This document shows, piece by piece, positions 2,765-21,100 of a stretch of DNA of 21,100 nucleotides; position 1 is the stretch's first letter, and every line of letters begins with the position of its first letter. A program made the position numbers and the translations under genes. Source of the stretch: a virus; the IMG/VR virus record IMGVR_UViG_3300043410_000577, positions 1 through 21,100 of that record, one strand, 5' to 3'. Below the pieces are notes generated by a model. It saw only the letters and a program-made list of their open reading frames with translations. It was not told the origin of the DNA and did not search any database.

Positions 2765-2840
2765 TGGTGGAGGTAAGGAGGATCGAACTCCTGACCTACG
2801 GCTTGCAAAGCCGCCGCTCTCCCAGCTGAGCTATACCCCC
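2765..2840 (-). tRNA. tRNA-Ala(TGC), copy 1
   Basis: Acceptor GGGGGTA/TACCTCC includes the G3-U70 pair, the alanine identity determinant. Anticodon loop TTGCAAG, encoded CCA. Confidence 0.93.
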
Positions 2841-2849
2841 ATTATACTG

Positions 2850-2926
2850 TGGCTCCCCGAGCTGGGCTCGAACCAGCGACACCTTGATTAACAGTCAAGT
2901 GCTTCTACCAACTGAGCTATCAGGGA
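2850..2926 (-). tRNA. tRNA-Asn(GTT), copy 1
   Basis: Anticodon arm CTTGA-CTGTTAA-TCAAG, acceptor TCCCTGA/TCGGGGA, discriminator G73, encoded CCA. Confidence 0.93.
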
Positions 2927-2940
2927 ACAATATATTTTAC

Positions 2941-3135
2941 TTATTCAGTTGCTGTCGGTGCAGCAAAATTATTTCCACGTTCTTTCTTTGTAGACTTTGG
3001 AACAATACTAGCAGCGTATTCTGCATCAATCATCATACGCTTAAACTGATTACGACCTTCTGCTGGACCGCCCATTAACGCGATCATACGTTTTGTAGTC
3101 TTACTCAATTTAAAGTTTGCGTTAGTTTTAGCCAT
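2941..3135 (-). CDS. small basic phage protein, unknown function
   Basis: 64 aa, beginning MAKTNANFKLSKTTKRMIAL, with good start context (AAAAGGAAAAAC-ATG). It is rich in Lys and Arg (pI clearly basic) with a predicted central helix. No cysteines, signal peptide or membrane segment. It fits exactly between tRNA-Asn and tRNA-Ser. I recognise the general type (short conserved phage ORF in tRNA or structural regions) but no function. Confidence 0.8.
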   Translation of the reverse strand: MAKTNANFKLSKTTKRMIALMGGPAEGRNQFKRMMIDAEYAASIVPKSTKKERGNNFAAPTATE

Positions 3136-3155
3136 GTTTTTCCTTTTGTTATAGT

Positions 3156-3249
3156 TGGCGGTGAGCGAGAGATTCGAACTCTCGATACAGGTTTAAGCCC
3201 GTATGCCTCCTTAGCAGGGAGGTACCTTCGGCCACTCGGTCAGCTCACC
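3156..3249 (-). tRNA. tRNA-Ser(GCT)
   Basis: Type II tRNA with a long variable arm. Acceptor GGTGAGC/GCTCACC, anticodon arm CCTCC-CTGCTAA-GGAGG, encoded CCA. Its 5' end overlaps the stop codon of the small gene at 3245-3388. Confidence 0.93.
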
Positions 3250-3388
3250 GTGTTACTTTGCGTACCAGCTTATGCCAGTAATATTTTAAACCTCTCCATG
3301 TTGGCATCCAATCAAACATATCACTTCCAATGCCAACTTCTTTAGGCATATTGCCGTATGCCTTGTTCAGCGTTTCTTTTCCTGACAT
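3245..3388 (-). CDS. 47-aa hypothetical protein overlapping tRNA-Ser
   Basis: Found by reading the tRNA-Leu to tRNA-Ser interval. ATG at 3388 with a strong Shine-Dalgarno (TAGGAG, 8 nt upstream), protein MSGKETLNKAYGNMPKEVGI and onward, ending in a Trp/Tyr-rich basic tail (GLKYYWHKLVRKVTR). The TGA stop lies inside the first nucleotides of tRNA-Ser (overlap 5 nt), so translation to the end and tRNA maturation from one transcript would be mutually exclusive. Function unknown. Confidence 0.75.
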   Translation of the reverse strand: MSGKETLNKAYGNMPKEVGIGSDMFDWMPTWRGLKYYWHKLVRKVTR

Positions 3389-3406
3389 ACAGCTTTCTCC
3401 TATAAT

Positions 3407-3491
3407 TGGTGCGACTGACCAGAATCGAACTGGTATGGCTTGCGCCGAGGGATTTTAAGTCCCTTGTGTCTACCTATTTCACCACAGTCGC
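3407..3491 (-). tRNA. tRNA-Leu(TAA)
   Basis: Type II tRNA, acceptor GCGACTG/CAGTCGC, anticodon loop CTTAAAA on a GGGA/TCCC stem, variable-arm stem, encoded CCA. Confidence 0.93.
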
Positions 3492-3496
3492 ATATC

Positions 3497-3700
3497 TTAC
3501 TGACTTCTGCGCTTCATCCAAGTGTAATCTACACCGTCTGGGCACTTTCCGTCTTTGATGCTATCAGCACCAAACATTCCTACAATTTCCATATCATCGC
3601 TGCTAATTGTTACGAACTCATTCATAATCTTAGCAGTATGCATAGCTTCATCTAATGTCATTACATCAAATGTTACTTTTGAACCTGTTACTTTATACAT
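3497..3700 (-). CDS. hypothetical phage protein
   Basis: 67 aa, MYKVTGSKVTFDVMTLDEAM and onward, acidic, with a beta-strand then an amphipathic helix (DEAMHTAKIMNEF), and a C-terminal basic tail (YTWMKRRSQ). The AAGG about 13 nt upstream of the ATG is a weak, distant ribosome binding site. It ends 5 nt before the 5' end of tRNA-Leu(TAA). No recognised domain. Confidence 0.7.
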   Translation of the reverse strand: MYKVTGSKVTFDVMTLDEAMHTAKIMNEFVTISSDDMEIVGMFGADSIKDGKCPDGVDYTWMKRRSQ

Positions 3701-3751
3701 TGTTAATTATACCTTCTTTTTCCACTCATCGCAACAATGATTTACATTATT

Positions 3752-3827
3752 TGGCGCCTCGTAGGGGTTTCGATCCCCTTGCCTCCGCAGTGACAGTGCG
3801 GTGCTCTCCCGATTGAGCTAACGAAGC
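3752..3827 (-). tRNA. tRNA-Asp(GTC), canonical copy
   Basis: Acceptor GCTTCGT/ACGAGGC, anticodon arm CCGCA-CTGTCAC-TGCGG, discriminator G73, encoded CCA. A second Asp(GTC), interrupted by a 48-nt insert, is at 7812-7934. Confidence 0.93.
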
Positions 3828-4030
3828 ATGAATTAGTTGTAGGCTACGCAATCCAAATCGCCCCTACTTGAGTTGACATCACTGTCACTACGTTGTTAAC
3901 TTCTTAGCTGTTGTAGTTCAGCACAGCAGTTCGGACTTCCTTAATTGGACACTCTTCTTAACGGTTAGCTGCCCCCGACTCGATGAAACTGAGTAAGCTA
4001 TAGTAATCACGTTTACTACCGACGGGATCT
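3828..4030 (-). ncRNA. candidate structured RNA between tRNA-Ser(TGA) and tRNA-Asp
   Basis: About 200 nt without a tRNA or a credible ORF. Several local hairpins are visible on the transcribed strand: GTAGTAA/TTACTAT, ACTC/GAGT, GCTGT/ACAGC, TGACA-GTGA-TGTCA (a GNRA-type loop) and GTAGG/CCTAC next to the tRNA-Asp side. I do not recognise it as RNase P RNA, 6S or any other named RNA. Function is unknown; it may be spacer with processing hairpins. Confidence 0.35.
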
Positions 4031-4120
4031 TGGCGGAAGCGGTGAGATTCGAACTCACGGAGCATTTCTACTCGACAGTTTTCAAGACTGTTGCAATAAA
4101 CCGGACTCTGCCACACTTCC
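4031..4120 (-). tRNA. tRNA-Ser(TGA)
   Basis: Type II tRNA with long variable arm, anticodon arm ACAGT-CTTGAAA-ACTGT, acceptor GGAAGTG/CGCTTCC, encoded CCA. Confidence 0.92.
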
Positions 4121-4128
4121 ATATAAAT

Positions 4129-4213
4129 TGGTGGATGAGGTTGGCTTCGAACCAACAATGCCAGGGGCGGCAGATTTACAGTCTGCTGGGGTTACCAATT
4201 TTCCTACTCATCC
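4129..4213 (-). tRNA. tRNA-Tyr(GTA)
   Basis: Type II tRNA, acceptor GGATGAG/CTCATCC, anticodon arm GCAGA-CTGTAAA-TCTGC, encoded CCA. Confidence 0.93.
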
Positions 4214-4217
4214 ATAT

Positions 4218-4283
4218 ACATTAATGTCCTACAGCTTTAGTAGGCCTCTCACTCTTGCGAATGACGCAGTCACACGTTAATGT
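4218..4283 (-). repeat. stem-closed spacer between tRNA-Leu(TAG) and tRNA-Tyr
   Basis: ACATTAA (4218-4224) and TTAATGT (4277-4283) close a three-way junction with two internal hairpins on the transcribed strand: CATTC-GCAA-GAGTG (GNRA tetraloop) and CCTAC/GTAGG. It is probably a processing structure or small RNA. Confidence 0.45.
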
Positions 4284-4290
4284 AATAACT

Positions 4291-4373
4291 TGGTGCCCCA
4301 GGACGGACTCGAACCGTCACGCTTGCGCACTGGCTTCTAAGACCAGCGTGTCTACCAATTTCACCACCAGGGC
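4291..4373 (-). tRNA. tRNA-Leu(TAG)
   Basis: Type II tRNA, anticodon arm CTGGT-CTTAGAA-GCCAG, acceptor GCCCTGG/CTGGGGC, encoded CCA. Confidence 0.92.
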
Positions 4374-4377
4374 ATAT

Positions 4378-4473
4378 CATATTAAAACACACTCATCACT
4401 TTCGGACTAACAAGTCCCGGTGTGAAGTCCTTACAACCTAGAACTATGTCTAAGTAAAGTGTGTTTTAATATG
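4378..4473 (-). repeat. 16-bp stem-closed spacer RNA between tRNA-Glu and tRNA-Leu
   Basis: A perfect 16-bp inverted repeat (4378-4393 with 4458-4473) encloses 64 nt. The interior has a TCAC/GTGA stem topped by GGACT-TGTT-AGTCC with a GAAA bulge, plus a TAGA/TCTA hairpin. The right arm overlaps the CCA of tRNA-Glu, so folding of this stem would compete with the tRNA 3' end. A long stem like this is a likely RNase III-type processing site. Confidence 0.5.
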
Positions 4474-4547
4474 GTACTCGGTAGGGGAATCGAACCCCTC
4501 TTCCCGCCGTGAAAGGGCGGTGTCCTAGACCGATAGACGAACCGAGC
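4472..4547 (-). tRNA. tRNA-Glu(TTC), copy 1
   Basis: Anticodon arm CCGCC-CTTTCAC-GGCGG, acceptor GCTCGGT/ACCGAGT with a G1-U72 wobble, encoded CCA. It is the first tRNA downstream of the promoter at 4611-4639. Confidence 0.92.
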
Positions 4548-4610
4548 AAAATATCTTTTGAATTTTTAACGAACAATTTTTAGTTAGCTCTATTAACTAA
4601 CTAAGTCTCT

Positions 4611-4639
4611 ATTATATATCCGCTATACAAGTCTGTCAA
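4611..4639 (-). promoter_or_regulatory. sigma70-type promoter inside the tRNA array
   Basis: TTGACA at 4634-4639 and TATAAT at 4611-4616 (minus strand) with exactly 17 bp between: a perfect consensus. It lies in a 120-bp AT-rich gap between tRNA-Arg(TCG) and tRNA-Glu and points into the left half of the array. A TTAGTTA/TAACTAA hairpin lies just downstream of the predicted start. Confidence 0.85.
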
Positions 4640-4667
4640 CTCTTTTTTGGATATTTTTAAATTATTT

Positions 4668-4742
4668 TGGCCGGGCTTGAGAGGATCGAACTCCCACCCT
4701 CTGTTTCGAAGACAGAGATGATATCCATTTCACCAAAGCCCG
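4668..4742 (-). tRNA. tRNA-Arg(TCG)
   Basis: Acceptor CGGGCTT/AAGCCCG, anticodon arm TCTGT-CTTCGAA-ACAGA, discriminator G73, encoded CCA. Confidence 0.92.
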
Positions 4743-4744
4743 GT

Positions 4745-4819
4745 TGGCGCGGCCGATTGGACTCGAACCAACATAGGACACTTTAGAAGAGTGTTGCCTT
4801 TCCATTAGACTACAGCCGC
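4745..4819 (-). tRNA. tRNA-Arg(TCT)
   Basis: Acceptor GCGGCTG/CGGCCGC, anticodon arm ACACT-CTTCTAA-AGTGT, discriminator G73, encoded CCA. Two nucleotides from its neighbour. Confidence 0.92.
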
Positions 4820-4820
4820 A

Positions 4821-4899
4821 TGGTACCCCTGCTCCGATTCGAACGGAGAACAACTTCTCCTTTTGAGAGAGACGACTTTACCAATTTGTCCACAGGGGC
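4821..4899 (-). tRNA. tRNA with CAA anticodon (Leu?), short variable arm
   Basis: Acceptor GCCCCTG/CAGGGGT, anticodon arm TCTCT-CTCAAAA-GGAGA. With U33 fixed, the anticodon reads CAA (Leu UUG codon). The D arm resembles the Leu tRNAs nearby, but the variable region is only about 7 nt, unlike normal type II leucine tRNAs. Amino acid identity is therefore less certain than the gene call. CCA encoded. Confidence 0.8.
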
Positions 4900-4906
4900 A
4901 TCTATC

Positions 4907-4980
4907 TGGTGCTCCTAACAAGAATCGAACTTGTATTGCTACTTTACCAAAGTAGTGTTCTGCCATTTAACTATAGGAGC
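4907..4980 (-). tRNA. tRNA-Thr(GGT)
   Basis: Acceptor GCTCCTA/TAGGAGC, anticodon arm CTACT-TTGGTAA-AGTAG, encoded CCA. It begins 1 nt after the phosphoesterase stop codon. Confidence 0.93.
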
Positions 4981-4981
4981 A

Positions 4982-5587
4982 TTACATTGAAGGACCGTTA
5001 CCGTTCTTAAACCCTACTTCACCGCCTTCTTCTTGAATACGTTTAATAACATCTTCAAACAGTATAGGAGCAAAATCTGGAGTTTGTTCTACGCATACAC
5101 AGTGGTAACGAGTGTCGTTTTCTTCGCTGTAAGTAAATTCACCAGTCCTCACATTAACACCGACAATTTTCTTTACACGATTTGCATGTAAGTGTCCGTG
5201 AATGTTAACACCAAAACGACCTAAACTTTCTGGGTGTACAGGAATGTGACTTAAGATCATTCCGTTCATAACGTGGTACGCACGAAGTTCTCTAAAGTAT
5301 GTGCGATATTCGTCATCTCTAAAGATATCGTGGTTGCCACGAATAAGAACCTTGTCACCGTTTAATCGATGTAATATTTTTAACGATTTACGATTAATAA
5401 CTACATCACCTAAATGGTAAACTTTGTCTGTAGGCTTAACACGTTCGTTCCAAGCCTTGACCATTGCTTCGTCCATTTCATCTGGATCTGTCCAGGGACG
5501 CAATTTTGTAAATCCATCACTTCGGGTAAAGCGGCAAACGCCAGCGTGTCCGAAGTGTGTATCACTTACTAAAAACACACTAGGCAT
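4982..5587 (-). CDS. calcineurin-like metallophosphoesterase
   Basis: 201 aa from the ATG at 5587, which has AAAGGAG 6 nt upstream; the longer frame has no such site. The metallophosphoesterase motifs are in order: D-x-H (SDTHFGH, residues 8-14), GD (YHLGDVV), GNHD (RGNHD), a later H (ILSHIP) and GHLH (IHGHLHANR). All ligands for a two-metal centre are present. Likely substrates are phosphomono- or diesters; phage relatives include nucleotide and RNA-end phosphatases, so a role in RNA or nucleotide repair is possible but unproven. It is the last gene of a three-gene run (6464 to 4982) beginning with a dual-specificity phosphatase. Confidence 0.88.
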   Translation of the reverse strand: MPSVFLVSDTHFGHAGVCRFTRSDGFTKLRPWTDPDEMDEAMVKAWNERVKPTDKVYHLGDVVINRKSLKILHRLNGDKVLIRGNHDIFRDDEYRTYFRELRAYHVMNGMILSHIPVHPESLGRFGVNIHGHLHANRVKKIVGVNVRTGEFTYSEENDTRYHCVCVEQTPDFAPILFEDVIKRIQEEGGEVGFKNGNGPSM

Positions 5588-5598
5588 AATGCACTCCT

Positions 5599-5967
5599 TT
5601 ATTTTTTCAATGCTTCCATAGTAGCAAGGATTTCTGCCCATTGCTCTTGTGGAGGCTTACCTTCATTTAAGTTACGGATAGCCATAAAGTCTTTGTGGTT
5701 CTCGGGAATCTTAAAATAGATGTTTGCATACGTGCAATCAAAGCTATCATCTTCATCGTGGCTATACCATGGGTGCTCTGACATTTCATCAAAGACATCT
5801 TCATAGTCTTCACGATTACCACCACCGTTGCGTGTATGCACAACAATGTAACCTTCGTCTAGGTAGACATTACGAAAGCGACCAAAGTCTGCTGTAGTCT
5901 TGCCTAGAATCTCTAGCAACTTATCTGTGTCGGGATTCATACCAAACAACATATTATACAAACTCAT
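5599..5967 (-). CDS. hypothetical phage protein
   Basis: 122 aa, acidic, not recognised. The ATG at 5967 overlaps the TGA of the upstream phosphatase gene (ATGA), with GAAGG just upstream, indicating translational coupling. It contains RNGGGNREDYEDVFDEM, then FKIPENHKDF and a C-terminal helix (EQWAEILATMEALKK). No catalytic signature. It ends 11 nt before the phosphoesterase start, so the three genes form an operon. Confidence 0.8.
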   Translation of the reverse strand: MSLYNMLFGMNPDTDKLLEILGKTTADFGRFRNVYLDEGYIVVHTRNGGGNREDYEDVFDEMSEHPWYSHDEDDSFDCTYANIYFKIPENHKDFMAIRNLNEGKPPQEQWAEILATMEALKK

Positions 5968-6464
5968 ACATCACCTTCTCTTTCTTTAGGAACCACAAAC
6001 CCCCAATCAGTTTCAACACCGTTAATAGTGTGTGGCTCTTGTTCATCGTAAGTCCAACCTAAAACTTTCATCATTTTATGTTTGACTAGTAAATTAGGAC
6101 TGCGGAAAGCTTCTGCATCTCTAAAGCCTAGCATTACGCCAACTTCAGCAACTGCTCCACTTCTGCAAACTCCTGCATGGCAGTGTACTACAACATTCAT
6201 GTGACTGTCAAGTGCGTGTTGTAATAGAGCCACAAGTTTTACTGCATCCTCGTCTTGAATCTTCCACTTATCGTTAATAGTTTCATCAGACTGTTCTAAA
6301 TCTAAAAATTTAAATTGATGCGTTTCTCTAAATTGATTTGCCGGTTGTGGAAATTCCATATCGGGATCAACTATTTGGATCAACATACTGTTAATACCTG
6401 CTTCAATATGATGTCCTTTTCTAATGTCAGCAAGTGACACATTTTGAATCCAGGGTGTTAACAT
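5964..6464 (-). CDS. dual-specificity / tyrosine phosphatase-like protein
   Basis: 166 aa from the ATG at 6464 (TTAAGGAG, 6 nt upstream). The longer frame would run into tRNA-His. The Cys-phosphatase P-loop HCHAGVCRSG (residues 94-103; nucleophile C95, phosphate-binding R101) matches HCX5R(S/T). An Asp in KFLDLEQSDE may be the general acid. The fold is that of small DSP or PTP-like enzymes; targets could be phosphoproteins, RNA 5' ends or nucleotides. It is first in the operon with the 122-aa protein and the metallophosphoesterase, so two different phosphatases are cotranscribed. Confidence 0.87.
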   Translation of the reverse strand: MLTPWIQNVSLADIRKGHHIEAGINSMLIQIVDPDMEFPQPANQFRETHQFKFLDLEQSDETINDKWKIQDEDAVKLVALLQHALDSHMNVVVHCHAGVCRSGAVAEVGVMLGFRDAEAFRSPNLLVKHKMMKVLGWTYDEQEPHTINGVETDWGFVVPKEREGDV

Positions 6465-6479
6465 TACATTCTCCTTAAT

Positions 6480-6555
6480 TGGGGTGTTAGATGGGGAACG
6501 ATCCCATACTATCGCTTTCACAGAGCAATGTGCAGACCACTACACTACTAACACC
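6480..6555 (-). tRNA. tRNA-His(GTG)
   Basis: Anticodon arm TTGCT-CTGTGAA-AGCGA. The encoded G at position -1 faces C73, the histidine identity element. CCA encoded. Confidence 0.93.
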
Positions 6556-6564
6556 ATAGAAAAC

Positions 6565-6679
6565 AGGTTCTCTTTTTTCGTGCTCCCATTACACCACAGT
6601 GGCGACCAACCCACTGCCGGGATTCGAACCCGGACCCTCTTTTTTGCAGAAAGATTATTTTGATTGCTGAAAAGAACCT
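6565..6679 (-). tRNA. circularly permuted tRNA-Cys-like gene within E element 7
   Basis: On the transcribed strand the order is: AGGTTCT, TTT, CAGCA, then anticodon arm TCTTT-CTGCAAA-AAAGA (6654-6638; anticodon GCA), 4-nt variable region, T arm CCGGG-TTCGAAT-CCCGG (6633-6617), acceptor 3' strand CAGTGG, an 8-nt linker, acceptor 5' strand CCACTG (6602-6597), D arm, then AGAACCT and TTTT. Rejoined at position 26/27 it makes a full tRNA with Cys anticodon and U73. Oddities: no encoded CCA (other tRNAs here have it), a 1-72 mismatch, and the string AAAAAAGAG occurring in both halves, possibly a trace of tandem duplication. The outer 7-bp stem AGGTTCT/AGAACCT belongs to the E family. Confidence 0.7.
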
Positions 6680-6695
6680 TAACGGTCAATAAAAC

Positions 6696-6805
6696 AGGAT
6701 ACATTCTTGACGAATGCTCTACCGAGTGAGCTAATCACGCATGAAGCGTAATGTTGGAATCGAACCAACTACCTATCGTTTGATAGAATTTGCTGTATGT
6801 ATCCT
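6696..6805 (-). tRNA. circularly permuted tRNA-like gene within E element 2
   Basis: Transcribed order: TTTT, AGGATAC, ATA, CAGCA, anticodon 3' region, T arm GTTGG-TTCGATT-CCAAC (6769-6753), acceptor 3' strand ATTACGC (6752-6746), 5-nt linker, acceptor 5' strand GCGTGAT (6740-6734), D arm with GCTC/GAGC, anticodon 5' region, GTATCCT, G, TTTT. The acceptor halves pair over 7 bp (one G-U). The anticodon arm must be assembled from both ends (TTCGT with ACGAT, 4 of 5 pairs); the best loop reads CTATCAA, giving an unusual ATC, so identity is unresolved. No CCA encoded. It lies 5 nt after the CCA of tRNA-Gly(GCC). Confidence 0.65.
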
Positions 6806-6810
6806 AAAAA

Positions 6811-6886
6811 TGGAGCGGATGACGGGGTTCGAACCCGTGACCTCGTGCTTGGCAAGCATGTATTCTACCAACTGAACTACATCCGC
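6811..6886 (-). tRNA. tRNA-Gly(GCC)
   Basis: Acceptor GCGGATG/CATCCGC, anticodon loop TTGCCAA, T arm CGGGTTCGAACCCCG, encoded CCA. Confidence 0.93.
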
Positions 6887-6892
6887 ATAAAC

Positions 6893-7146
6893 TGTCTAAA
6901 GAAAAAGAGCTCACAGAGTTCTGGTTTGAGATCGATGTCTCCGTGGCAACCAGCGGTTACAGCCGCTCTCTATTTGTCTTGCCTAACGTGGAGCAATTCG
7001 AACAGTCAACGGCATTGATCTGTAATACTATCCGTACATATTCTGTTCAAGTGTGAGTTTTATAAACCCTTCAAGTCAGCCCTTCCGAAGCTAGCTATCG
7101 TCCATACGGAACACTTATATCGCCTTGAGCACTTTTACTTTAGACA
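6893..7146 (-). ncRNA. 254-nt stem-closed structured RNA candidate
   Basis: The ends form an imperfect roughly 20-bp stem: TGTCTAAAG plus AAAAGAGCTC (6893 on) with GAGCACTTTT plus CTTTAGACA (to 7146). The interior has no ORF with a start site and no complete tRNA. One segment (about 6990-7040) contains a T-loop-like TTCGAAT without a good stem, so decayed tRNA sequence is possible. Another interior hairpin is GAGCGGCTGTAACCGCT. It fills the gap between tRNA-Met and tRNA-Gly(GCC). Function unknown. Confidence 0.45.
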
Positions 7147-7209
7147 ACATATTTATAGAATGCCAAGTTGTTCACCGCACAACTATGGCAAAAGCGGGGG
7201 TCTGTAAGT

Positions 7210-7284
7210 TGGTGGTGATGAGTAGAGTCGAACTACCACCGGGCTCCGTATGAAGGAGGTGCACTACCGTTATGCTACATCACC
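7210..7284 (-). tRNA. tRNA with CAT anticodon (elongator Met or Ile2)
   Basis: Acceptor GGTGATG/CATCACC fully paired (unlike the initiator-like copy at 1670), anticodon loop TTCATAC, encoded CCA. Elongator Met or lysidine-modified Ile cannot be separated by eye. Confidence 0.88.
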
Positions 7285-7360
7285 ATATGGAAACACTCTA
7301 AATGGCAGCACCAACATAATTATATTAGTTGAATACCACCAAACAGAATGTTTTCATATG
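7284..7360 (-). repeat. 16-bp stem-closed spacer between tRNA-Lys(TTT) and tRNA-Met
   Basis: 7284-7299 pairs with 7345-7360 over 15 of 16 positions, including CATATG on both sides. A CAAC/GTTG hairpin and TGG/CCA pairing lie inside. It touches both neighbouring tRNAs, like the element at 4378-4473, so it is likely a processing stem. Confidence 0.5.
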
Positions 7361-7433
7361 GTAGGGGCACAGAGAATCGAACTCTGATTAACTGGTTAAA
7401 AGCCAGCTACTTTAGCCGTTAAGTTATACCCCC
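7359..7433 (-). tRNA. tRNA-Lys(TTT)
   Basis: Anticodon arm GCTGG-CTTTTAA-CCAGT, acceptor GGGGGTA/TGCCCCT with wobble ends, encoded CCA. Confidence 0.92.
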
Positions 7434-7436
7434 ATA

Positions 7437-7512
7437 TGGTCCACTCAGTCGGATTCGAACCGACACCTCATTGATTAAGAGTCAAGTGCGCTACCATTAA
7501 CGCTACGAGTGG
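7437..7512 (-). tRNA. tRNA-Lys(CTT)
   Basis: Acceptor CCACTCG/TGAGTGG, anticodon arm CTTGA-CTCTTAA-TCAAT, encoded CCA. Its 5' end overlaps a pseudoknot-capable spacer. Confidence 0.92.
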
Positions 7513-7555
7513 TTGGTCGTATGTAATTGTTTTACGTGCCAACCAGGACCATACG
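7511..7555 (-). ncRNA. pseudoknot-capable spacer upstream of tRNA-Lys(CTT)
   Basis: GGTTGG (7511-7516) can pair with CCAACC (7539-7544), and CGTATG (7518-7523) with CATACG (7550-7555). The two helices interleave, giving a pseudoknot. Helix 1 uses the first two nucleotides of tRNA-Lys. Confidence 0.35.
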
Positions 7556-7571
7556 GGGTACAAGGTTGACA

Positions 7572-7592
7572 CTAACGTTTAGCACGTTTCAT
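7572..7592 (-). CDS. candidate 6-codon leader-type mini-ORF
   Basis: ATG at 7592 encodes MKRAKR then TAG, preceded by a strong Shine-Dalgarno (AAAAGGAG, 7 nt spacing). The SD lies inside an even shorter ORF (MFKRRTT, 7590-7613) whose TGA overlaps this ATG. Both are rich in Lys and Arg codons and lie just upstream of the two tRNA-Lys genes. It could be a leader peptide, or the remnant of a lost gene. Confidence 0.3.
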   Translation of the reverse strand: MKRAKR

Positions 7593-7624
7593 GTCGTTCT
7601 CCTTTTGAACATTAAAAAAAATAC

Positions 7625-7679
7625 AGGATGCTTATTTTTAGATTAAAAGTCTAATTATAAAATTTGCTGGACGCATCCT
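7625..7679 (-). repeat. E element 3 (no insert)
   Basis: 55 bp: AGGATGC/GCATCCT outer stem, GTC, CAGCA, then an AT-rich loop containing TTAGA/TCTAA, TTTT before the left arm. It begins 5 nt after the CCA of the two-T-arm tRNA at 7685. Confidence 0.65.
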
Positions 7680-7684
7680 AAAAC

Positions 7685-7806
7685 TGGTGTGTAAGGAAGG
7701 AGTTGAACCTTCAACTGGACCATCCTAAGCGACTGCCGCCACCCAAGGGAGTCGAACCCTTAGCCACGGACTGCCGCCCGGGTGTATACCGTTTCACTAC
7801 TTACAC
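7685..7806 (-). tRNA. aberrant tRNA-like gene with two T-arm motifs
   Basis: Outer features are tRNA-like: acceptor GTGTAAG/CTTACAC fully paired, a Leu-type D arm, T arm GAAGG-TTCAACT-CCTTC, encoded CCA. The middle is 71 nt instead of about 23, with a second T-arm-like hairpin AAGGG-TTCGACT-CCCTT flanked by direct repeats of GGCGGCAGTC. The extra length (about 48 nt) equals the insert in the adjacent tRNA-Asp, but the E-type motif is absent. No anticodon arm with U33 can be assigned with confidence (CTTAGGA, anticodon TAG, is one possibility). It may be a recombined or nested tRNA, or a pseudogene. Confidence 0.5.
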
Positions 7807-7811
7807 ATATT

Positions 7812-7934
7812 TGGTGTCGCTGCTGGGATTCGAACCCAGATTCCTTCCTTGACATGGATTAAAGAAATATGCTGAACGTAACCTAAAACAGGCTCACCCT
7901 TTTATAAGTGTCCTAACCATTAGACGACAGCGAC
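7812..7934 (-). tRNA. tRNA-Asp(GTC) interrupted by a 48-nt insert
   Basis: Acceptor GTCGCTG/CAGCGAC, D arm, T arm CTGGG-TTCGAAT-CCCAG and CCA are canonical, but the gene is 123 nt long. Removing 7858-7905 (or 7859-7906; one shared T makes the junction ambiguous) restores the anticodon arm CTTCC-ATGTCAA-GGAAG, a 75-nt tRNA-Asp. The insert lies in the 5' strand of the anticodon stem (about position 29/30), not in the loop. Confidence 0.8.
7858..7905 (-). repeat. E element 6: permuted copy as an intron-like insert
   Basis: The insert carries the same motif as the other E elements in permuted order: right arm GTGAGCCTG, TTTT, left arm AGGTTAC, GTT, CAGCA. The arms pair over 7 bp with one bulged G, closed by the TTTT loop. 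Exon CACTT can also pair with insert AGGGTG around the 5' junction. At 48 nt it is too short for a known group I or II intron. Confidence 0.6.
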
Positions 7935-7946
7935 AAAAAACTAAAT

Positions 7947-8038
7947 TGGTACCCCCGGCGGGAGTCGAACCCACATTGGCCAATTATCTGTTGCACACGG
8001 GATATAAATCCGCTGTTTTACCATTAAACTACAGGGGT
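7947..8038 (-). tRNA. tRNA-Ile(TAT)-like, irregular
   Basis: Acceptor ACCCCTG/CGGGGGT, T arm GTGGG-TTCGACT-CCCGC and CCA are good. The anticodon loop reads TTTATAT (TAT) but the top stem pair is mismatched, and the variable region is 22 nt with the palindrome ATTGGCCAAT. Amino acid identity is tentative. Confidence 0.65.
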
Positions 8039-8048
8039 ATAAAATTGT

Positions 8049-8126
8049 TGGCACCCCTGGAAGGACTCGAACCTCCGACTCCCACGTTCGTAGCGTGGTA
8101 CTCTAATTCCGCTGAGTTACAGGGGC
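8049..8126 (-). tRNA. tRNA-Arg(ACG)
   Basis: Anticodon arm CCACG-CTACGAA-CGTGG, acceptor GCCCCTG/CAGGGGT, discriminator G73, encoded CCA. A34 is expected to become inosine by host TadA. The gene at 8103-8291 runs into its 5' half. Confidence 0.92.
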
Positions 8127-8291
8127 ATCTTTTATTCGTTCTAAAGCGTCTTTACGCATTTTAAACAAACGATGCTCATTTGGTTTATGAACAACTATGT
8201 ATTCTATACCATCTATAGTTTCAGTCAAGCGGGTATCGTCACAAACAAACTTGTCATTATTCATTCTGTTTTTAAACATAGTTGGTTTCAT
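8103..8291 (-). CDS. small hypothetical protein overlapping tRNA-Arg
   Basis: 62 aa, MKPTMFKNRMNNDKFVCDDT and onward, Shine-Dalgarno AAGGGGAAGG before the ATG at 8291. It is charged, with a short beta segment (GIEYIVVHKP) and basic helices. The last 8 codons and the TAG stop lie inside the 5' half of tRNA-Arg(ACG), a 24-nt overlap. The main body lies in a tRNA-free gap between tRNA-Phe and tRNA-Arg, which supports it being real. Function unknown. Confidence 0.65.
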   Translation of the reverse strand: MKPTMFKNRMNNDKFVCDDTRLTETIDGIEYIVVHKPNEHRLFKMRKDALERIKDAPVTQRN

Positions 8292-8308
8292 AACCTTCCC
8301 CTTATACT

Positions 8309-8384
8309 TGGTGCCGCCTCGTGGGATCGAACCACGTTCCTCGGTGCTTCAAACCGGTGCTATGACCACATCAGCTAAAGCGGC
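8309..8384 (-). tRNA. tRNA-Phe(GAA)
   Basis: Acceptor GCCGCTT/AGGCGGC, anticodon loop TTGAAGC on CGGT/ACCG, encoded CCA. Confidence 0.9.
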
Positions 8385-8389
8385 AAAAT

Positions 8390-8466
8390 TGGTCTCCGTA
8401 GAAGGATTCGAACCTTCACCTCACCGCCCCAAACGGAGAGTGCAACCTGATAACACTTTACAGAGA
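8390..8466 (-). tRNA. tRNA-Pro(TGG), copy 2, degenerate
   Basis: Acceptor TCTCTGT/ACGGAGA, anticodon loop TTTGGGG (TGG), encoded CCA. Position 8 is A instead of U, and the anticodon stem has a T-T mismatch, so it is less canonical than copy 1. Confidence 0.8.
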
Positions 8467-8471
8467 TAAAT

Positions 8472-8545
8472 TGGCGTACCCCCAGGGACTCGAACCCCGA
8501 CCAACAGTTTTGGAGACTGGTATGCTGCCATTACACTAGGGATAC
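8472..8545 (-). tRNA. tRNA-Trp(CCA)
   Basis: Acceptor GTATCCC with GGGGTAC, anticodon arm CCAGT-CTCCAAA-ACTGT, discriminator G73, encoded CCA. Confidence 0.92.
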
Positions 8546-8550
8546 ATATT

Positions 8551-8625
8551 TGGTGGAGGACCAGGGTATCGAACCCTTGTAGTCACGATGCTTGCAAAGC
8601 AACGCCGCCGCCCTCGGCTCCCCCC
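8551..8625 (-). tRNA. tRNA-Ala(TGC), copy 2
   Basis: G3-U70 present, anticodon loop TTGCAAG, encoded CCA. The acceptor (7-66) and T stem are weaker than in copy 1, and the D arm is unusually GC-rich. Confidence 0.8.
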
Positions 8626-8631
8626 ATTATT

Positions 8632-8710
8632 TGGCTCCGCGTGTGAGGATCGAACTCACCTAACCACTGATTAACAGTCAGGTCCCTGCACCTTGCTTGG
8701 ATTTCGCGGA
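8632..8710 (-). tRNA. tRNA-Asn(GTT), copy 2, degenerate
   Basis: Anticodon arm CCTGA-CTGTTAA-TCAGT, T arm GTGAG-TTCGATC-CTCAC, encoded CCA. The D arm is irregular, and position 7-66 is mismatched. Confidence 0.8.
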
Positions 8711-8718
8711 ATAGAACT

Positions 8719-8793
8719 TGGTACTCCGAAAGGGTATCGATCCCTCTTCTCCGCCTTGAAAGGGCAGCGTTCTAGCCAGTAAACTACCGGAGT
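8719..8793 (-). tRNA. tRNA-Glu(TTC), copy 2
   Basis: Acceptor ACTCCGG/TCGGAGT, anticodon loop CTTTCAA on CTGCC/GGCGG, encoded CCA. Confidence 0.85.
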
Positions 8794-8802
8794 ATAAAAA
8801 AC

Positions 8803-8859
8803 AGGATTCGCTTTTTGCTTTTTTTCAATAAAAGTTTTTTAATTTGCTGAATGAATCCT
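8803..8859 (-). repeat. E element 4 (no insert)
   Basis: 57 bp: AGGATTC/GAATCCT outer stem, ATT, CAGCA, AT-rich loop; TTTT on both sides. It starts 5 nt after the CCA of tRNA-Gln and ends 9 nt before tRNA-Glu. Confidence 0.65.
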
Positions 8860-8864
8860 AAAAC

Positions 8865-8938
8865 TGGCAGGCGCATTAGGGATCGAACCTAAACTAACAG
8901 AGTCAAAGTCTGTTGTGCTACCATTACACAATGCGCCA
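8865..8938 (-). tRNA. tRNA-Gln(TTG)
   Basis: Anticodon arm ACAGA-CTTTGAC-TCTGT, acceptor TGGCGCA/TGCGCCT with an unpaired U1-U72 (GlnRS favours a weak first pair), discriminator G73, encoded CCA. Confidence 0.9.
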
Positions 8939-8947
8939 ACAAAAAAC

Positions 8948-9008
8948 AGGATAGCTTTTGTCGCTAGACAACCATAAGTTTAGCTTAAAAGTTTGCTGTA
9001 ACTATCCT
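8948..9008 (-). repeat. E element 5 (no insert)
   Basis: 61 bp: AGGATAG/CTATCCT outer stem, TTA, CAGCA, loop without tRNA sequence; TTTT on both sides. It starts 5 nt after the CCA of tRNA-Ile and ends 9 nt before tRNA-Gln. Confidence 0.65.
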
Positions 9009-9013
9009 AAAAT

Positions 9014-9088
9014 TGGTAGCCATGGACAGTTTCGAAATGTCGACCTATCGCTTATCAAGCGATTGCTCTTCCTCTGAGCTACACGGCT
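9014..9088 (-). tRNA. tRNA-Ile(GAT)
   Basis: Acceptor AGCCGTG/CATGGCT, anticodon arm ATCGC-TTGATAA-GCGAT, encoded CCA. One T-stem pair is mismatched. It is the promoter-proximal tRNA of the main array. Confidence 0.9.
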
Positions 9089-9940: not shown

Positions 9941-10447
9941 TTAACTATTTAATACTTTAGCAACACTATTCATTACACTAGAAATACGACCAATGTCACG
10001 AAGTTGTTCTACTGTGTAGCCTTCCTTCTTCAATGTGTCATAATGTGCCTTAACACAGAAGTGACACTTACCAACAATACTTGCAGCCAAGCTGAACGCT
10101 TCGAAGTTTGCTTTTGTTGTTCCGCCATGCGATGCGATAGCGTTCATGCGTAACTGTGCTGGCAATCCTTTTAGCTGTTCATCGTCTGCCATTTCAACAT
10201 ATGGATACCATACATTGTTCTGTGCCATAATACTTGCAGCAGTCATTGCTGACTCTGCATGTACTGGACTATCTGCTAACAAGATACTCAATACTTTGCC
10301 GTTACCAGTTGCAGCCAATGCTGCTACAGCACATCCTATAGCAACATCGGCATCTAATGTACTACGCAAAAGGACAGCGTCTAAGTTTAACTTAGTGTCC
10401 TTTGCGTATTCTGGCAACGCACTTTTAATAGTGTCGTTGAATGCCAT
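9941..10447 (-). CDS. ahpD: AhpD-like alkyl hydroperoxidase (reductase partner of AhpC)
   Basis: 168 aa, close to the size of Mycobacterium AhpD (177). The catalytic set E116, C128-x-x-C131, H135 (KCHFCVKAH) matches the E/CxxC/H proton-relay site of AhpD, which recycles AhpC through a dihydrolipoyl-linked system. The helical CMD-type body includes a MxxMNAIASHGG-like segment. ATG overlaps the TAA of ahpC by one base (TAATG), with GGGGAG 9 nt upstream, so expression is coupled at stoichiometric levels. Carriage of AhpD by a phage is unusual; it looks like a recruited bacterial operon, although base composition matches the neighbours. Confidence 0.92.
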   Translation of the reverse strand: MAFNDTIKSALPEYAKDTKLNLDAVLLRSTLDADVAIGCAVAALAATGNGKVLSILLADSPVHAESAMTAASIMAQNNVWYPYVEMADDEQLKGLPAQLRMNAIASHGGTTKANFEAFSLAASIVGKCHFCVKAHYDTLKKEGYTVEQLRDIGRISSVMNSVAKVLNS

Positions 10448-10986
10448 TATAGTGTCTCCCCGCCTACTGTACGGTTACATGCACATAGTTCGCCAGTTTG
10501 CAATGCGTCAAGAATACGCAATGTTTCTTCTGGGCTACGGCCAACGTTCAAGTTATTAACAGTAACGTGTTGGATAACGTTTTCTGGGTCAACAATGAAT
10601 GTTGCGCGAAGTGCTGCACCTGCTGGAGCATAGAATACACCAAGTTGTTCAATCAATGACAACTCACCACGCTGTGTGTCTGCAAACTGTGTATGTGTGA
10701 TTTTCTGTAAGTCTGGGTGTGCTTTTTGCCAAGCAATTTTACAGAATTCGTTATCTGTAGAACCTGTTAGCAATACTGCGTCACGATCTGCAAAGTCACC
10801 TGCTAGTTTATCGTACGCTACAATTTCTGTAGGGCAAACGAATGTGAAGTCCTTTGGGTAGTAAACGATTACTTTCCACTTACCAGCAAAACTTTCATCT
10901 GTAATATCAAAGAAAGCATCTTCTGGTTGTCCTGGCTTAACACCAGTGATTGCGAATTTTTCTAATTTATGTCCAACTGTTTTCAT
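10447..10986 (-). CDS. ahpC: AhpC-type 2-Cys peroxiredoxin
   Basis: 179 aa. Peroxidatic Cys51 in FTFVCPTE, with the conserved Thr48 and Pro52. The C-terminus has the Cys168-Ala-Cys170 pair (GELCACNR), as in AhpC proteins that work with AhpD (Mycobacterium-type CxC) rather than the single resolving Cys of AhpF-linked enzymes. It reduces H2O2, organic peroxides and peroxynitrite in the cytoplasm. Strong Shine-Dalgarno AAAGGAG before the ATG, and a promoter at 11045-11073. The downstream ahpD completes the system. It probably protects the infected cell or phage enzymes from oxidative stress. Confidence 0.95.
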   Translation of the reverse strand: MKTVGHKLEKFAITGVKPGQPEDAFFDITDESFAGKWKVIVYYPKDFTFVCPTEIVAYDKLAGDFADRDAVLLTGSTDNEFCKIAWQKAHPDLQKITHTQFADTQRGELSLIEQLGVFYAPAGAALRATFIVDPENVIQHVTVNNLNVGRSPEETLRILDALQTGELCACNRTVGGETL

Positions 10987-12906: not shown

Positions 12907-14304
12907 TTATTTGCGAGCATTTGCCCGAACTTGCTCAAAAGTAATTTCTTTTACAAGTTTACCATCTCGGTACACTTCTTCCAGCATGTTAACAAATGGT
13001 TCAACTGCTTTATCGTGCCAACCAGTAGGTTGATTAACAGCAGTTATCCATTCGCCACCTGATTTCCAAAGTTGGATACGGCCTGCTTTAGATTTCTTAC
13101 CAGGATCAGTAATTGGATCTTTAACAACATCACGTTCTTCACCGTTTACAATAATGCTAGAGCATTTCATTGCAAACTTTTGAGTATCGCGATCTAGTTG
13201 TTGTAGCAACGCACCGCCCATACCAAACGCAATGTTATCTGCACTCCACCCATATGCTTGGAATCCACCAAGGATCATACGGATTGAATGTTCGTTAACA
13301 CCATCACCTTGGATCAAACGTACATTGTTAAGTACTTTAAAACCCTTGGCGTTTGTAGTATATCCAAACTTTTGTCCAAGAATCTCAACTAGTTTGCGGC
13401 AAACAACATCTGGTTCGCCGGAATCAGGACGGATGACAACAGTAGCGCCAGAATCAATAACCTCTTGTCGGAGCTCTTCTCCCCAAAGTTTCGATGCGGC
13501 ATTAAAAACATCATAGCTATCAGAAACCACAGCAACAATGCTGCCAGGTTTAGCAAAGTTATTAAGCATATTACGATAAGCATCTACTTCACCATCACGG
13601 CCCCAGCTAGTAATTGTTGAGTGCTCGGCGGCAGGGATAGAAAAGCCGCTAATCCCAGCATCATAGTATTCGCGAGCATACAGAACACCAGAAATAGTAT
13701 CACTGCCCATGAAGTTAATAAGGTGTGATGCACCTCCGATACCCGCTGATTCCATGCTAGAAACACCACGAGCACCGAAATCGTGCAACTTAAAGTCAAT
13801 AAGGGAAGGGTCACCTGTAGTCTCCAAATAGTTAAGGATCACTTCGCGGATCTTGTGCGACTGTGTTGCCACAGTAGTAGGATACCAAATTGCACGAAGC
13901 AATGCAGTTTCCAACCAAGTTGTTAGCCAGAAACATTCTGGATCTGTGTTTTCAATTGTTGCAAGCACCTGCTTGACAGGTACAACTGTTCCTTCGGGGA
14001 CGGCACGGATGACAACTGGGAGGTATCCATTGTGCTTGTCAAGAATGTACTGCCATCCTGCTCTGTTGAAAGGCTCACCGTGTGCGGTAAGGATTTCATC
14101 AGCCACATCAATGTCTTGTTGTGTGATGGGCTCGAGTAAGTACTCTTTAATGAATGCCTGGAGTCCAAAGAATACTGTCTGATCGTAACGTCCGCCTCGG
14201 GATTCAATGTAAGAATATACACCTGTAGTACCTGCTGGGTATTGTTTGAACATGCTAACTTTGTAGCTGTCAGTGTTAAGAATGATGTTTTTTGCTAATT
14301 TCAT
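12907..14304 (-). CDS. nadV: nicotinamide phosphoribosyltransferase (NAMPT)
   Basis: 465 aa, in the family range (460-490). Converts nicotinamide plus PRPP to NMN, the first step of the two-step salvage to NAD+. Diagnostic blocks: YKVSMFKQYP near the N-terminus (human-type DSYK), KLHDFGARGVSS, EHSTITSWGRDGE with the catalytic His, VVIRPDSGEP (PRPP/ribose-binding), IQGDGVN and a final PF-VNMLEEVYRDG segment. Good ribosome binding site (AAGGAG, 7 nt). Located 44 nt downstream of nadM-nudix, in one operon from the promoter at 15450. Large phages such as KVP40 carry the same pair, and NAD+ resynthesis from nicotinamide can counter NADase-based defence. Confidence 0.96.
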   Translation of the reverse strand: MKLAKNIILNTDSYKVSMFKQYPAGTTGVYSYIESRGGRYDQTVFFGLQAFIKEYLLEPITQQDIDVADEILTAHGEPFNRAGWQYILDKHNGYLPVVIRAVPEGTVVPVKQVLATIENTDPECFWLTTWLETALLRAIWYPTTVATQSHKIREVILNYLETTGDPSLIDFKLHDFGARGVSSMESAGIGGASHLINFMGSDTISGVLYAREYYDAGISGFSIPAAEHSTITSWGRDGEVDAYRNMLNNFAKPGSIVAVVSDSYDVFNAASKLWGEELRQEVIDSGATVVIRPDSGEPDVVCRKLVEILGQKFGYTTNAKGFKVLNNVRLIQGDGVNEHSIRMILGGFQAYGWSADNIAFGMGGALLQQLDRDTQKFAMKCSSIIVNGEERDVVKDPITDPGKKSKAGRIQLWKSGGEWITAVNQPTGWHDKAVEPFVNMLEEVYRDGKLVKEITFEQVRANARK

Positions 14305-14348
14305 GATAAACTCCTTATCGTTTGTATTACAGCCTTTGCGTCTATCGC

Positions 14349-15383
14349 TTAGGCACCCACGAAGTGTTGTAGGATTTCGTAGTGGTCTTCAAAGCAGTCT
14401 TCCGACCGGACTTCTGCAATAGGCACCCACTTAGCCTTTTCTGCATCATCACTACCTTTGACTTTTGGAAGTTCGCCGTCAGGCAGGACAATGTGGAAAG
14501 CGTGTGTAATTATACGTCCACGAGGACTTCTGTCAATAGCGTCAAACACTTTACTACGAACAATATTGCCACGTAGTACAGGTTCTGGTACTTTGATTTT
14601 AGTTTCTTCGCGGAGTTCGCGCAACATTGCGGCTTCTACTGATTTGTCAGTATTAGCGTTGACGTAGCCGCCGGGCAAAGCCCACAAACCTTTACCAGGT
14701 TCGGCACGGCGACGGATCATTAGTACGTGACCAGATTGGATAACCACTGCGTCAGCAGTACTAAAGATAGGAGGATAAGGTAACGAAGCATATTGTTTCT
14801 TGTAAGTTTCTACAAATTCACGTTCACGAATAATTTGTTCGTATTCTGGGCAAGTAGAAAAACTTGCCAAGAACTCGTATGTAGTAGAAGGAACAACTGC
14901 TTTAATAAAGTTCATGTTAACATCACGCTTGAAAAACAAGTCACGAATGTTAACAGCACTAAGCGGCTCAATTTGTTCTACGTTGACAAAGTCCCACTGC
15001 GGAAACATATCAAGGTAAAAACTAGATTCATCTTTCTTGTGGCCAATAATACCAATTTTAAATTCGCCAGGTCCTTTGGCATCATAGATTGCGTCATTAA
15101 CAATCTTTTGAACACGAACAGCCCATGCTTGGTCGTTGTAAATAGTGTCTGGGTTGCCGTTTACTGACACAGAGATGGCCATGCCGCGGGTAGCATACTT
15201 AATCATCTGCTCGCGTTCTGCGACAGTAAATGGGTTTTTATAAGTGCGTGGTTGATTTGCGGAGCCAGCAACAACAATTAGTTTGTCAGTAAGTGCAGTA
15301 GCACGGCGTACAATCTCTAAGTGAGCATTGTGAAATGGTTGAAACCGTCCGATGAGGACAAGGGCATCATATTGCTTTGACAT
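14349..15383 (-). CDS. nadM: bifunctional NMN adenylyltransferase / Nudix hydrolase
   Basis: 344 aa, two domains. The N-terminal NMNAT domain has GRFQPFHNAH (residues 12-21; HxxH nucleotide-transfer motif) and SAVNIRDLFF (ISTxxxR-like). It makes NAD+ from NMN and ATP. The C-terminal Nudix domain (about residues 205-340) has a full Nudix box GX5EX7REUXEE (GGYVNANTDKSVEAAMLREL, then REETKI), expected to cleave ADP-ribose or related compounds. This matches the bifunctional NadM-Nudix type of Synechocystis and phage KVP40. Ribosome binding site AAAGGA. Together with NAMPT it forms a complete nicotinamide-to-NAD+ route (NARP2-type). Confidence 0.95.
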   Translation of the reverse strand: MSKQYDALVLIGRFQPFHNAHLEIVRRATALTDKLIVVAGSANQPRTYKNPFTVAEREQMIKYATRGMAISVSVNGNPDTIYNDQAWAVRVQKIVNDAIYDAKGPGEFKIGIIGHKKDESSFYLDMFPQWDFVNVEQIEPLSAVNIRDLFFKRDVNMNFIKAVVPSTTYEFLASFSTCPEYEQIIREREFVETYKKQYASLPYPPIFSTADAVVIQSGHVLMIRRRAEPGKGLWALPGGYVNANTDKSVEAAMLRELREETKIKVPEPVLRGNIVRSKVFDAIDRSPRGRIITHAFHIVLPDGELPKVKGSDDAEKAKWVPIAEVRSEDCFEDHYEILQHFVGA

Positions 15384-18597: not shown

Positions 18598-18822
18598 TTA
18601 TTTTTTCTCGTCTTCAAGGTGCGGCGCTACTCGTGCTGCTTCTTCAGGAGTTGCAAAACGCTGAGGCTCGTGTGCCCACATAGGCATCCAAGACCACCCC
18701 CAAGACTTCCAATACTTTGCTACAAGATTGTTAGCAACGAGAATGCCTGCAAGGATAATTAAAAATCCCATTACTGTCAAAATTGAACCGGCCAAAAATA
18801 CTGCCGCCTGATCCATATCCAT
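18598..18822 (-). CDS. small single-pass membrane protein
   Basis: 74 aa. A transmembrane segment at about residues 8-32 (VFLAGSILTVMGFLIILAGI) precedes an aromatic-rich stretch (YWKSWGWSWMPMWAHEP) and a charged tail. The start could be M1 or M3; the ribosome binding site (AGAAG) is weak. It lies between the tRNA-containing small gene and the SGNH gene. Function not recognised. Confidence 0.72.
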   Translation of the reverse strand: MDMDQAAVFLAGSILTVMGFLIILAGILVANNLVAKYWKSWGWSWMPMWAHEPQRFATPEEAARVAPHLEDEKK

Positions 18823-18825
18823 AAT

Positions 18826-19140
18826 TTACTTCTTTCTTTGTTTGGTGCGTTTGACAGGAATCGAACCTGCTTCCTGGAGTTTTAGAGGCTCCGTGTCATC
18901 CATTGACATCAAACGCTTTAAATCTTTATGTTTGACAATTATAACAATTTTGTATGCATTGTCAACTTTAATTGGCAAATCTAAATGCACTGTTACTTCC
19001 GGGCCTGCCATGCTGACAACACGATCATTGCCAACAGTACCAGCAAACGGAATTCCATTGAATTTTCCAAAGACACGATCTCCTATTTCGTATTTAGGTT
19101 TGTATGCGTTCTTCTCAAAATAATCTGCTAAATTTCCCAT
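18826..19140 (-). CDS. small hypothetical protein whose 3' end contains a tRNA
   Basis: 104 aa from the ATG at 19140, where the -10 element ends 6 nt upstream, so the transcript is probably leaderless or nearly so. The N-terminal 70 residues (MGNLADYFEKNAYKPKYEIG, then DRVFGKFNGIPFAGTVGNDR) look like a small beta-barrel/SH3-type domain. The last 25 or so residues are the reading of the tRNA-like gene at 18843-18916. The normal C-terminus may therefore have been extended or replaced when the tRNA arose or inserted. Confidence 0.75.
   Translation of the reverse strand: MGNLADYFEKNAYKPKYEIGDRVFGKFNGIPFAGTVGNDRVVSMAGPEVTVHLDLPIKVDNAYKIVIIVKHKDLKRLMSMDDTEPLKLQEAGSIPVKRTKQRKK
18843..18916 (-). tRNA. 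amber-suppressor-like tRNA(CTA)
   Basis: Acceptor GCGTTTG/CAAACGC, T arm with GCAGG-TTCGATT-CCTGT, encoded CCA. Anticodon arm GGAGC-CTCTAAA-ACTCC with U33 gives anticodon CUA, which reads the amber codon UAG. The 31-39 pair is C-A, and position 8 is A. It lies away from the main array, inside a coding sequence, with its own promoter. Amino acid identity is unknown. Confidence 0.8.
18938..18965 (-). promoter_or_regulatory. promoter of the tRNA(CTA), inside a CDS
   Basis: TTGACA (18960-18965), 16 bp, TATAAT (18938-18943), about 22 nt upstream of the tRNA 5' end. It allows expression of the tRNA independently of its host gene. Confidence 0.75.
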
Positions 19141-20649: not shown

Positions 20650-20675
20650 AAAAAAATAGGACCCGAAGGTCCTAT
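20650..20675 (-). terminator. intrinsic terminator of the tmRNA transcript
   Basis: ATAGGACC-TTCG-GGTCCTAT, an 8-bp stem with UUCG loop, followed by TTTTTT on the minus strand. Confidence 0.92.
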
Positions 20676-20719
20676 TACTATTTTGGATGACAAGGCATAG
20701 CTGCCTCGGTTCCCGCAGG

Positions 20720-20758
20720 TTATTAAGCTGCTAAAGCAAACTCGCTGTCGTTAACAGC
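20720..20758 (-). other. tmRNA tag reading frame
   Basis: Resume codon GCT at 20758, then AVNDSEFALAA and tandem TAA TAA stops. The ALAA end is the ClpXP/ClpAP degron; the body resembles betaproteobacterial tags (type ANDxxFALAA) with an extra Val. Confidence 0.9.
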
Positions 20759-20880
20759 TACGTCTACTTGGAAGAACTGAAATGCTGATTTTGCATTTAT
20801 AGGTTTTGCTTGATTTACGGTCATCGCCTACCGTGTTGCCGTCTCTACTATCTACCCCTGTCGAAACCATGGCAGGCCCA

Positions 20881-21018
20881 TCATAAGGAATCTACGATTG
20901 AAGCTGATAACATATACATTAACAGACTGACTAAAAGTATTCCTAATATCACAGGAGCAAATACAAATAATCCTGTTAAGAATATAGTAGCCAGTATTTT
21001 AATATGTTTCTTATTCAT
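20881..21018 (-). CDS. 45-aa membrane protein nested in the tmRNA intervening segment
   Basis: ATG at 21018 with AAGGA 6 nt upstream; protein starts MNKKHIKILATIFLTGLFVF, then a very hydrophobic run (about residues 8-38), a transmembrane helix or pair, and a short end (ASIVDSL). The TGA stop ends 2 nt before the 5' nucleotide of the tmRNA coding piece. It fills the whole region that normally is a discarded intervening sequence. Function unknown; a small toxin, holin-like or regulatory peptide is possible. Confidence 0.65.
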   Translation of the reverse strand: MNKKHIKILATIFLTGLFVFAPVILGILLVSLLMYMLSASIVDSL

Positions 21019-21100
21019 CAAACTTCCTTATGGTGGACCTGGCGGGAGTCGAACCCGCGTCCAGAAGTCCTTCGCTTTGAAGGGATTACAACAATTCTTT

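Follow-up and report, generated by a model that had tools for sequence, protein, structure and literature searches.

A tRNA(CUA) gene within a small phage coding sequence

The stretch of DNA analyzed here, which we call the window, is a virus record of 21,100 bases and represents a fragment. According to ARAGORN, its minus strand encodes an array of 32 tRNAs, a further tRNA with a CTA anticodon and a permuted tmRNA (Table 1). The first-pass annotation had described the CTA gene as an amber-suppressor-like tRNA embedded in a coding sequence, apart from the array and with its own near-consensus promoter, and our analysis bears out each of these points. The gene lies 9.8 kb from the array. It passes both ARAGORN and the Rfam tRNA model (41.2 bits; gathering threshold 29), and the tRNA fold is present, with a folding z of -2.35 and 2 of 200 shuffles folding equally well. 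The anticodon loop reads CUCUAAA, position 73 is an A, the CCA is encoded, and the base of the anticodon stem has a C31.A39 mismatch. ARAGORN labels the gene "Pyl", as it does every CTA anticodon in the present data.

Table 1. Features of the window discussed in the text, with window positions.
Feature	Position	Strand	Support or remark
tRNA, CUA anticodon (amber-suppressor type)	18843..18916	(-)	ARAGORN, Rfam, folding, clan alignment
Sigma-70-type promoter, TTGACA-N16-TATAAT	18938..18965	(-)	12/12 match; inside the overlapping ORF
104-aa ORF, MGNLADYF family	18826..19140	(-)	Last codons traverse the tRNA; conserved part stops about 77 aa in
74-aa ORF 3' of the tRNA	18598..18822	(-)	No Pfam match; weak PHROG match, function unassigned
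Main array, 32 other tRNA genes	1002..9088	(-)	ARAGORN; separate from the CUA tRNA
tRNA-Leu(CAA)	4821..4899		Just 79 nt
tRNA-Ile(UAU)	7947..8038	(-)	92 nt, long variable arm
AhpC/TSA peroxiredoxin	10447..10986	(-)	Followed by an ORF that is AhpD-like by eye; the pair spans 9941-10986
NAD salvage pair	12907..15383	(-)	NAMPT-type phosphoribosyltransferase and CTP_transf_like/NUDIX protein
Permuted (two-piece) tmRNA	20653..21100	(-)	Rfam 136.9 bits; betaproteobacterial tmRNA family matches too; tag ...AVNDSEFALAA

The overlapping frame begins MGNLADYF within a longer ORF (18826-19275) and reads across the entire tRNA, so the earlier statement that the tRNA supplies the last 25 or so codons of the 104-aa protein is correct as to the frame; the tail, however, comes from the overlap and holds no conserved domain. 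The first 77 residues have 63 distinct relatives, and for 45 of these we could measure how far the stop codon lies from a KHKDI-type motif; in 33 of the 45 it comes 4 to 8 residues after the motif. Since most relatives stop so soon after the motif, the last 25 to 30 residues are a by-product of the overlap with the tRNA. The ORF traverses the CUA tRNA in six loci where the tRNA lies directly downstream (window/L001, L134, L354, L092, L323 and L332). When the protein alone was used as the query, L010/L030, L043 and L044 also proved to have a similar tRNA close to a member of this gene family, and the stretches examined at the other 76 of 80 loci found by protein contained no such tRNA.

The tRNA belongs to a conserved clan of CUA tRNAs

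Scanning viral contigs with a tRNA pattern returned at least 120 stretches, and among the matches listed 103 of 120 contain an ARAGORN CTA tRNA. We refer to the relatives of the window tRNA as the clan. Alignment A1 comprises 27 sequences chosen by eye from the 40 distinct clan sequences; in it, 91.2% of cells pair and 81 cells have changed on both sides, a number reached in 0 of 500 shuffles. With a pattern left open (blind) at the anticodon, CTA was found in 63 of 67 loci and CAT in the remaining four. All 55 loci with a CGCACCA end have CUA, and the four CAT loci differ in their acceptor end. The relatives thus keep the anticodon; a different anticodon in relatives was what the first-pass annotation had named as a point that would refute its reading.

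As to origin or charging, the best matches among other phage tRNAs are spread across Leu, Met, Thr, Arg, Gly, His and Lys. We rejected a bacterial origin: the scan of the whole genome_contigs set gave a single match, in a tRNA-rich MAG contig of Flavobacteriaceae with seven tRNAs. Stenotrophomonas phage RAS14 also came up in this search but carries Lys tRNAs at the site instead of a CUA tRNA, and was set aside. The CTCTAAA pattern is present in six of 12 large related records and absent from the other six, which indicates gain or loss of the tRNA, in a non-random sample where several records were chosen for having the pattern. The permuted tmRNA of the window recurs in G007, G012, G013, G016, G019, G020, G022 and XacN1; as these include non-carriers of the CUA tRNA, the link between the two is not specific.

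Some features of the tRNA core are atypical. The D loop of the window tRNA is very short in the alignment, and 27 of the 67 clan members have a base other than U at position 8, counting rows that include loci of the anticodon-blind pattern, which fixes bases 31 and 39. Because of these features activity as a tRNA is not assured, and together with the unpinned stem described below they would suit a non-adaptor role, such as a decoy for an anticodon nuclease or a tRNA-shaped structural RNA. The acceptor and T stems, CCA, A73 and CUA anticodon are strongly constrained, however, and a decoy would be expected to have a sense anticodon, so we regard a non-adaptor role as improbable. The gene is a real and conserved suppressor tRNA, probably functional, of the kind known from jumbo phages.

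The clan often has its own promoter and a broken anticodon stem

Upstream of the window tRNA is a perfect sigma-70-type promoter, whose -10 hexamer sits 21 nt from the tRNA within the 104-aa ORF. We compared the 66 clan members with 902 other phage tRNAs in the sequences examined and with 4000 random stretches: matches of at least 10/12 number 34, 88 and 225, and perfect matches 9, 14 and 14, respectively. In half of the 34 clan sites with at least 10/12 (17 sites), just 8 or 9 nt separate the end of the -10 hexamer from the tRNA, and transcripts would therefore start nearly at the tRNA itself. Within the overlapping gene family, all four scorable members that adjoin a tRNA have a 12/12 promoter, whereas the 46 members lacking an adjacent tRNA have a mean match of 8.9 and include a single 12/12 case. 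The protein sequence thus supplies part of the match, and the perfect match accompanies the tRNA. The 74-aa ORF is possibly co-transcribed with the tRNA.

The mismatch in the anticodon stem is also a recurrent feature. At least one pair of this stem is broken in 65 of 100 distinct CUA tRNAs among the matches listed, as opposed to 20% of 886 other phage tRNAs; the Fisher tests of the present analysis overstate significance, as related phages are not independent and the entry of 177 for other tRNAs is 20% of 886, rounded. Loci of the anticodon-open pattern were left out of the stem counts because that pattern fixes bases 31 and 39, and among tRNAs unselected for those bases the break affects 29 of the 40 clan members and 36 of the 60 CUA tRNAs outside the clan, again among the matches listed. 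A non-standard 31:39 pair, at the bottom of the stem, occurs in 25 of 40 clan members compared with 5% of the 886 other phage tRNAs, and the top pair is broken in 13 of the 40. The window tRNA has the bottom break (C31.A39), with its top pair 27:43 intact as G-C. For non-clan viral CUA tRNAs, the top pair is the more common break (27 of 60 distinct tRNAs among the matches listed). According to one report, unpinning the top pair makes a CUA tRNA-Thr a better reader of UAG and allows a CUA tRNA-Trp to read UAA (PMC13092985).

UAG remains a stop codon in relatives that carry the tRNA

Suppressor tRNAs in large phages have been linked to stop codon recoding, and the first-pass annotation raised this possibility here. 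Because the window is only a 21.1-kb fragment, TAG use was examined in relatives. Among ORFs of 100 aa or longer, TAG makes up 1.4-7.8% of the stops in the carriers (12 records), and 4.1 and 7.7% in two non-carriers. Reading UAG as sense gave no clear rise in coding density: in nine carriers other than the window, the change in ORF coverage ranged from -0.013 to +0.039, and with TGA as sense from -0.001 to +0.042. For the tRNA-rich window itself the corresponding changes are +0.081 and +0.115. Carriers contain 139 TAG-ended ORFs, 75 of which have homologues, and in 68 of these 75 (counted by hand) a homologue ends no more than 10 residues away.

We then consider TAG codons inside conserved genes. 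Twelve records contain 11,959 open-flanked TAG triplets, of which 910 are unshadowed by other frames and 18 have a standard protein aligned across them. Ten of the 18 belong to the two non-carriers. None of the eight in carriers was convincing, in a search that covered five large carriers in full and that rapidly evolving targets would escape. By comparing coordinates with tRNA-model matches, six of the eight were placed in or beside tRNA genes; of the other two, G012 11139 lies upstream of an ATG start, and G019 354756 has merely 28% identity across the 18 residues preceding the TAG. An earlier search for TAG-spanning matches had returned 1352 sites, mostly in frames that shadow conserved genes; the frame-filtered search superseded it. 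Two cases of a seemingly conserved TAG were also set aside. The first, in G013/G016, is a pair of neighboring genes with the TAG immediately before an ATG, and the second, in G016/G028, was read as an overlapping-frame match. G028 and G029 were part of the comparison of TAG-ended ORFs and of the later check for in-frame TAG, and lie outside the 12-record triplet screen.

A phage-encoded release factor 2, which some table-15 phages have, was also sought, and PF00472 was found in two of 18 records, both times as a short ORF with the RF-1 GGQ domain; these ORFs, in carriers G007 (221203-221526, L311) and G019 (231273-231590, L312), perhaps encode a ribosome-rescue hydrolase.

Together these results speak against the proposed recoding, since TAG in the carriers ends genes normally and mostly where homologues end; amber stops of this normal kind were among the points that the first-pass annotation had named as refuting its reading. 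Genome-wide or late-gene reassignment of UAG to an amino acid, as in code 15, would agree with the large tRNA sets of many carriers and with the suppressor tRNA(CTA) of 375 of 715 phages predicted as table 15, a count taken from the available part of PMC11210395. The small changes in coverage, the TAG stops at the ends of homologues and the unconvincing in-frame TAG codons of conserved genes in carriers, however, make it very unlikely, and both global and partial recoding in the relatives were rejected. With UAG as a normal gene end, the tRNA probably gives occasional read-through as opposed to an altered code.

Read-through could instead be programmed, with the suppressor adding a C-terminal extension to one phage protein, or to a few, as a regulatory switch. 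The conserved CUA, the dedicated promoter and the long open extensions past some TAG-ended ORFs would fit such a role. Conserved sequence past the stop, however, is rarer for TAG (3 of 78 in carriers) than for TAA (93 of 705) and TGA (33 of 345) taken together (126 of 1050). The strongest TAG-spanning case, that of G013/G016, is in records without the CUA tRNA, no standard protein runs convincingly across an in-frame TAG in carriers, and the XacN1 authors found no target either, as far as the available part of their report goes (PMC5852040). We therefore consider programmed read-through unlikely, with the reservation that a rapidly evolving target would slip past each of these comparisons.

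A model for the phage suppressor

The tRNA itself, its conserved CUA, the promoter, the overlap with the coding sequence, the often unpinned stem and the normal TAG stops of carrier relatives, all of them features of sequence, make it likely that the gene is a functional and independently transcribed amber-suppressor tRNA in a phage that, if it resembles its relatives, uses the standard code. We propose that host sigma-70 RNA polymerase would transcribe the tRNA from the promoter within the small overlapping gene, probably early, and that host enzymes would process it and a host synthetase charge it. Once charged, the tRNA(CUA) would rival host RF1 at UAG and cause partial read-through. Counting against this model, depletion of TAG, which one might expect under strong suppression, is not seen in the carriers, and the tRNA is distributed patchily among large relatives.

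A phage-encoded class II synthetase of PF00152, a family other than that of PylRS, was found in 0 of 12 records. The A73, G1-C72 and U35 of the tRNA would presumably suit Lys identity, and its GCG/CGC-A acceptor resembles that of the Leu(UAA) tRNA of the same phage.

With respect to purpose, we place host-directed or incidental read-through ahead of a programmed kind acting on some unconserved phage target, and recoding last. We tentatively suggest that the tRNA acts at UAG stops of the host, or at incidental ones, and not on a conserved phage gene. A sharper form of this suggestion, to which we give somewhat less credence, is that early read-through of host UAG disturbs host proteins, including those of defence, while the UAG-poor phage is spared. 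The host-type consensus of the promoter, the lack of a phage target in our searches and the low TAG share of phage stops are in line with this, and host-directed read-through has been suggested for crAss-like phages in an opinion paper, seen here in part (PMC11025619). The two non-carriers have an equally low TAG share, however, which indicates no special adaptation of the phage. More broadly, we speculate, with considerable doubt, that standard-code jumbo phages carry a suppressor cassette in which an often near-leaderless host-type promoter drives an unpinned-stem CUA tRNA that would compete better with RF1, early and directed at the host instead of serving recoding; perhaps such a tRNA also reads UAA.

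Suppressor tRNAs of phages are usually taken to mean that the genetic code has changed, and the clan shows that this inference can fail: many large phages have kept a tRNA for UAG that is strongly constrained and often driven by a promoter of its own, and yet they use UAG as a stop.

Comparison with known suppressor tRNAs

tRNA-Pyl combines a CUCUAAA loop with a 6-bp anticodon stem, a single base between the acceptor and D stems and a 3-nt variable loop. The window tRNA is alike in its CUA anticodon and CUCUAAA loop, but lacks the 6-bp anticodon stem; two bases separate its acceptor and D stems, its D loop contains GG and its variable loop has 5 nt. The suppressor tRNA(CTA) of crAss-like and other table-15 phages is similarly phage-encoded with a CUA anticodon. 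Phages of that kind, however, have in-frame UAG in conserved genes, and none was found in carriers of the present clan. The tRNAs with a 4-bp anticodon stem, in the portion of PMC13092985 available, also tie a broken stem pair to the reading of stop codons; those are mainly tRNA-Trp(CCA) reading UGA with the top pair affected, whereas the present clan consists of tRNA(CUA) and mostly has the bottom 31:39 pair affected.

The closest parallels are in jumbo phages. XacN1 (AP018399) is an isolated phage with the standard code, and the available text of its report describes in silico read-through of 18 amber stops that revealed no suppressor target (PMC5852040). Its CUA tRNAs share the anticodon, the CUCUAAA loop, C31.A39 and a nearby permuted tmRNA with the window tRNA. 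They differ in being two adjoining genes, with acceptor ends GCTTTCG.. and GGCCCGT.., sited among other tRNAs in long terminal repeats. Ralstonia phage RsoM2USA, likewise a jumbo phage, has one CUA tRNA plus 43 other tRNAs, and the accessible part of its report gives no specific target for the suppressor (PMC8504454). The target was left open by the XacN1 authors, and the common promoter and stem features provide handles on timing, potency and target; our searches of open-licence PMC papers gave no description of these features for the clan. Amber-suppressor tRNAs in standard-code jumbo phages have thus been described before, in XacN1 and RsoM2USA, and what the present analysis adds is the dedicated promoter, the overlap with a coding sequence and the often unpinned anticodon stem.
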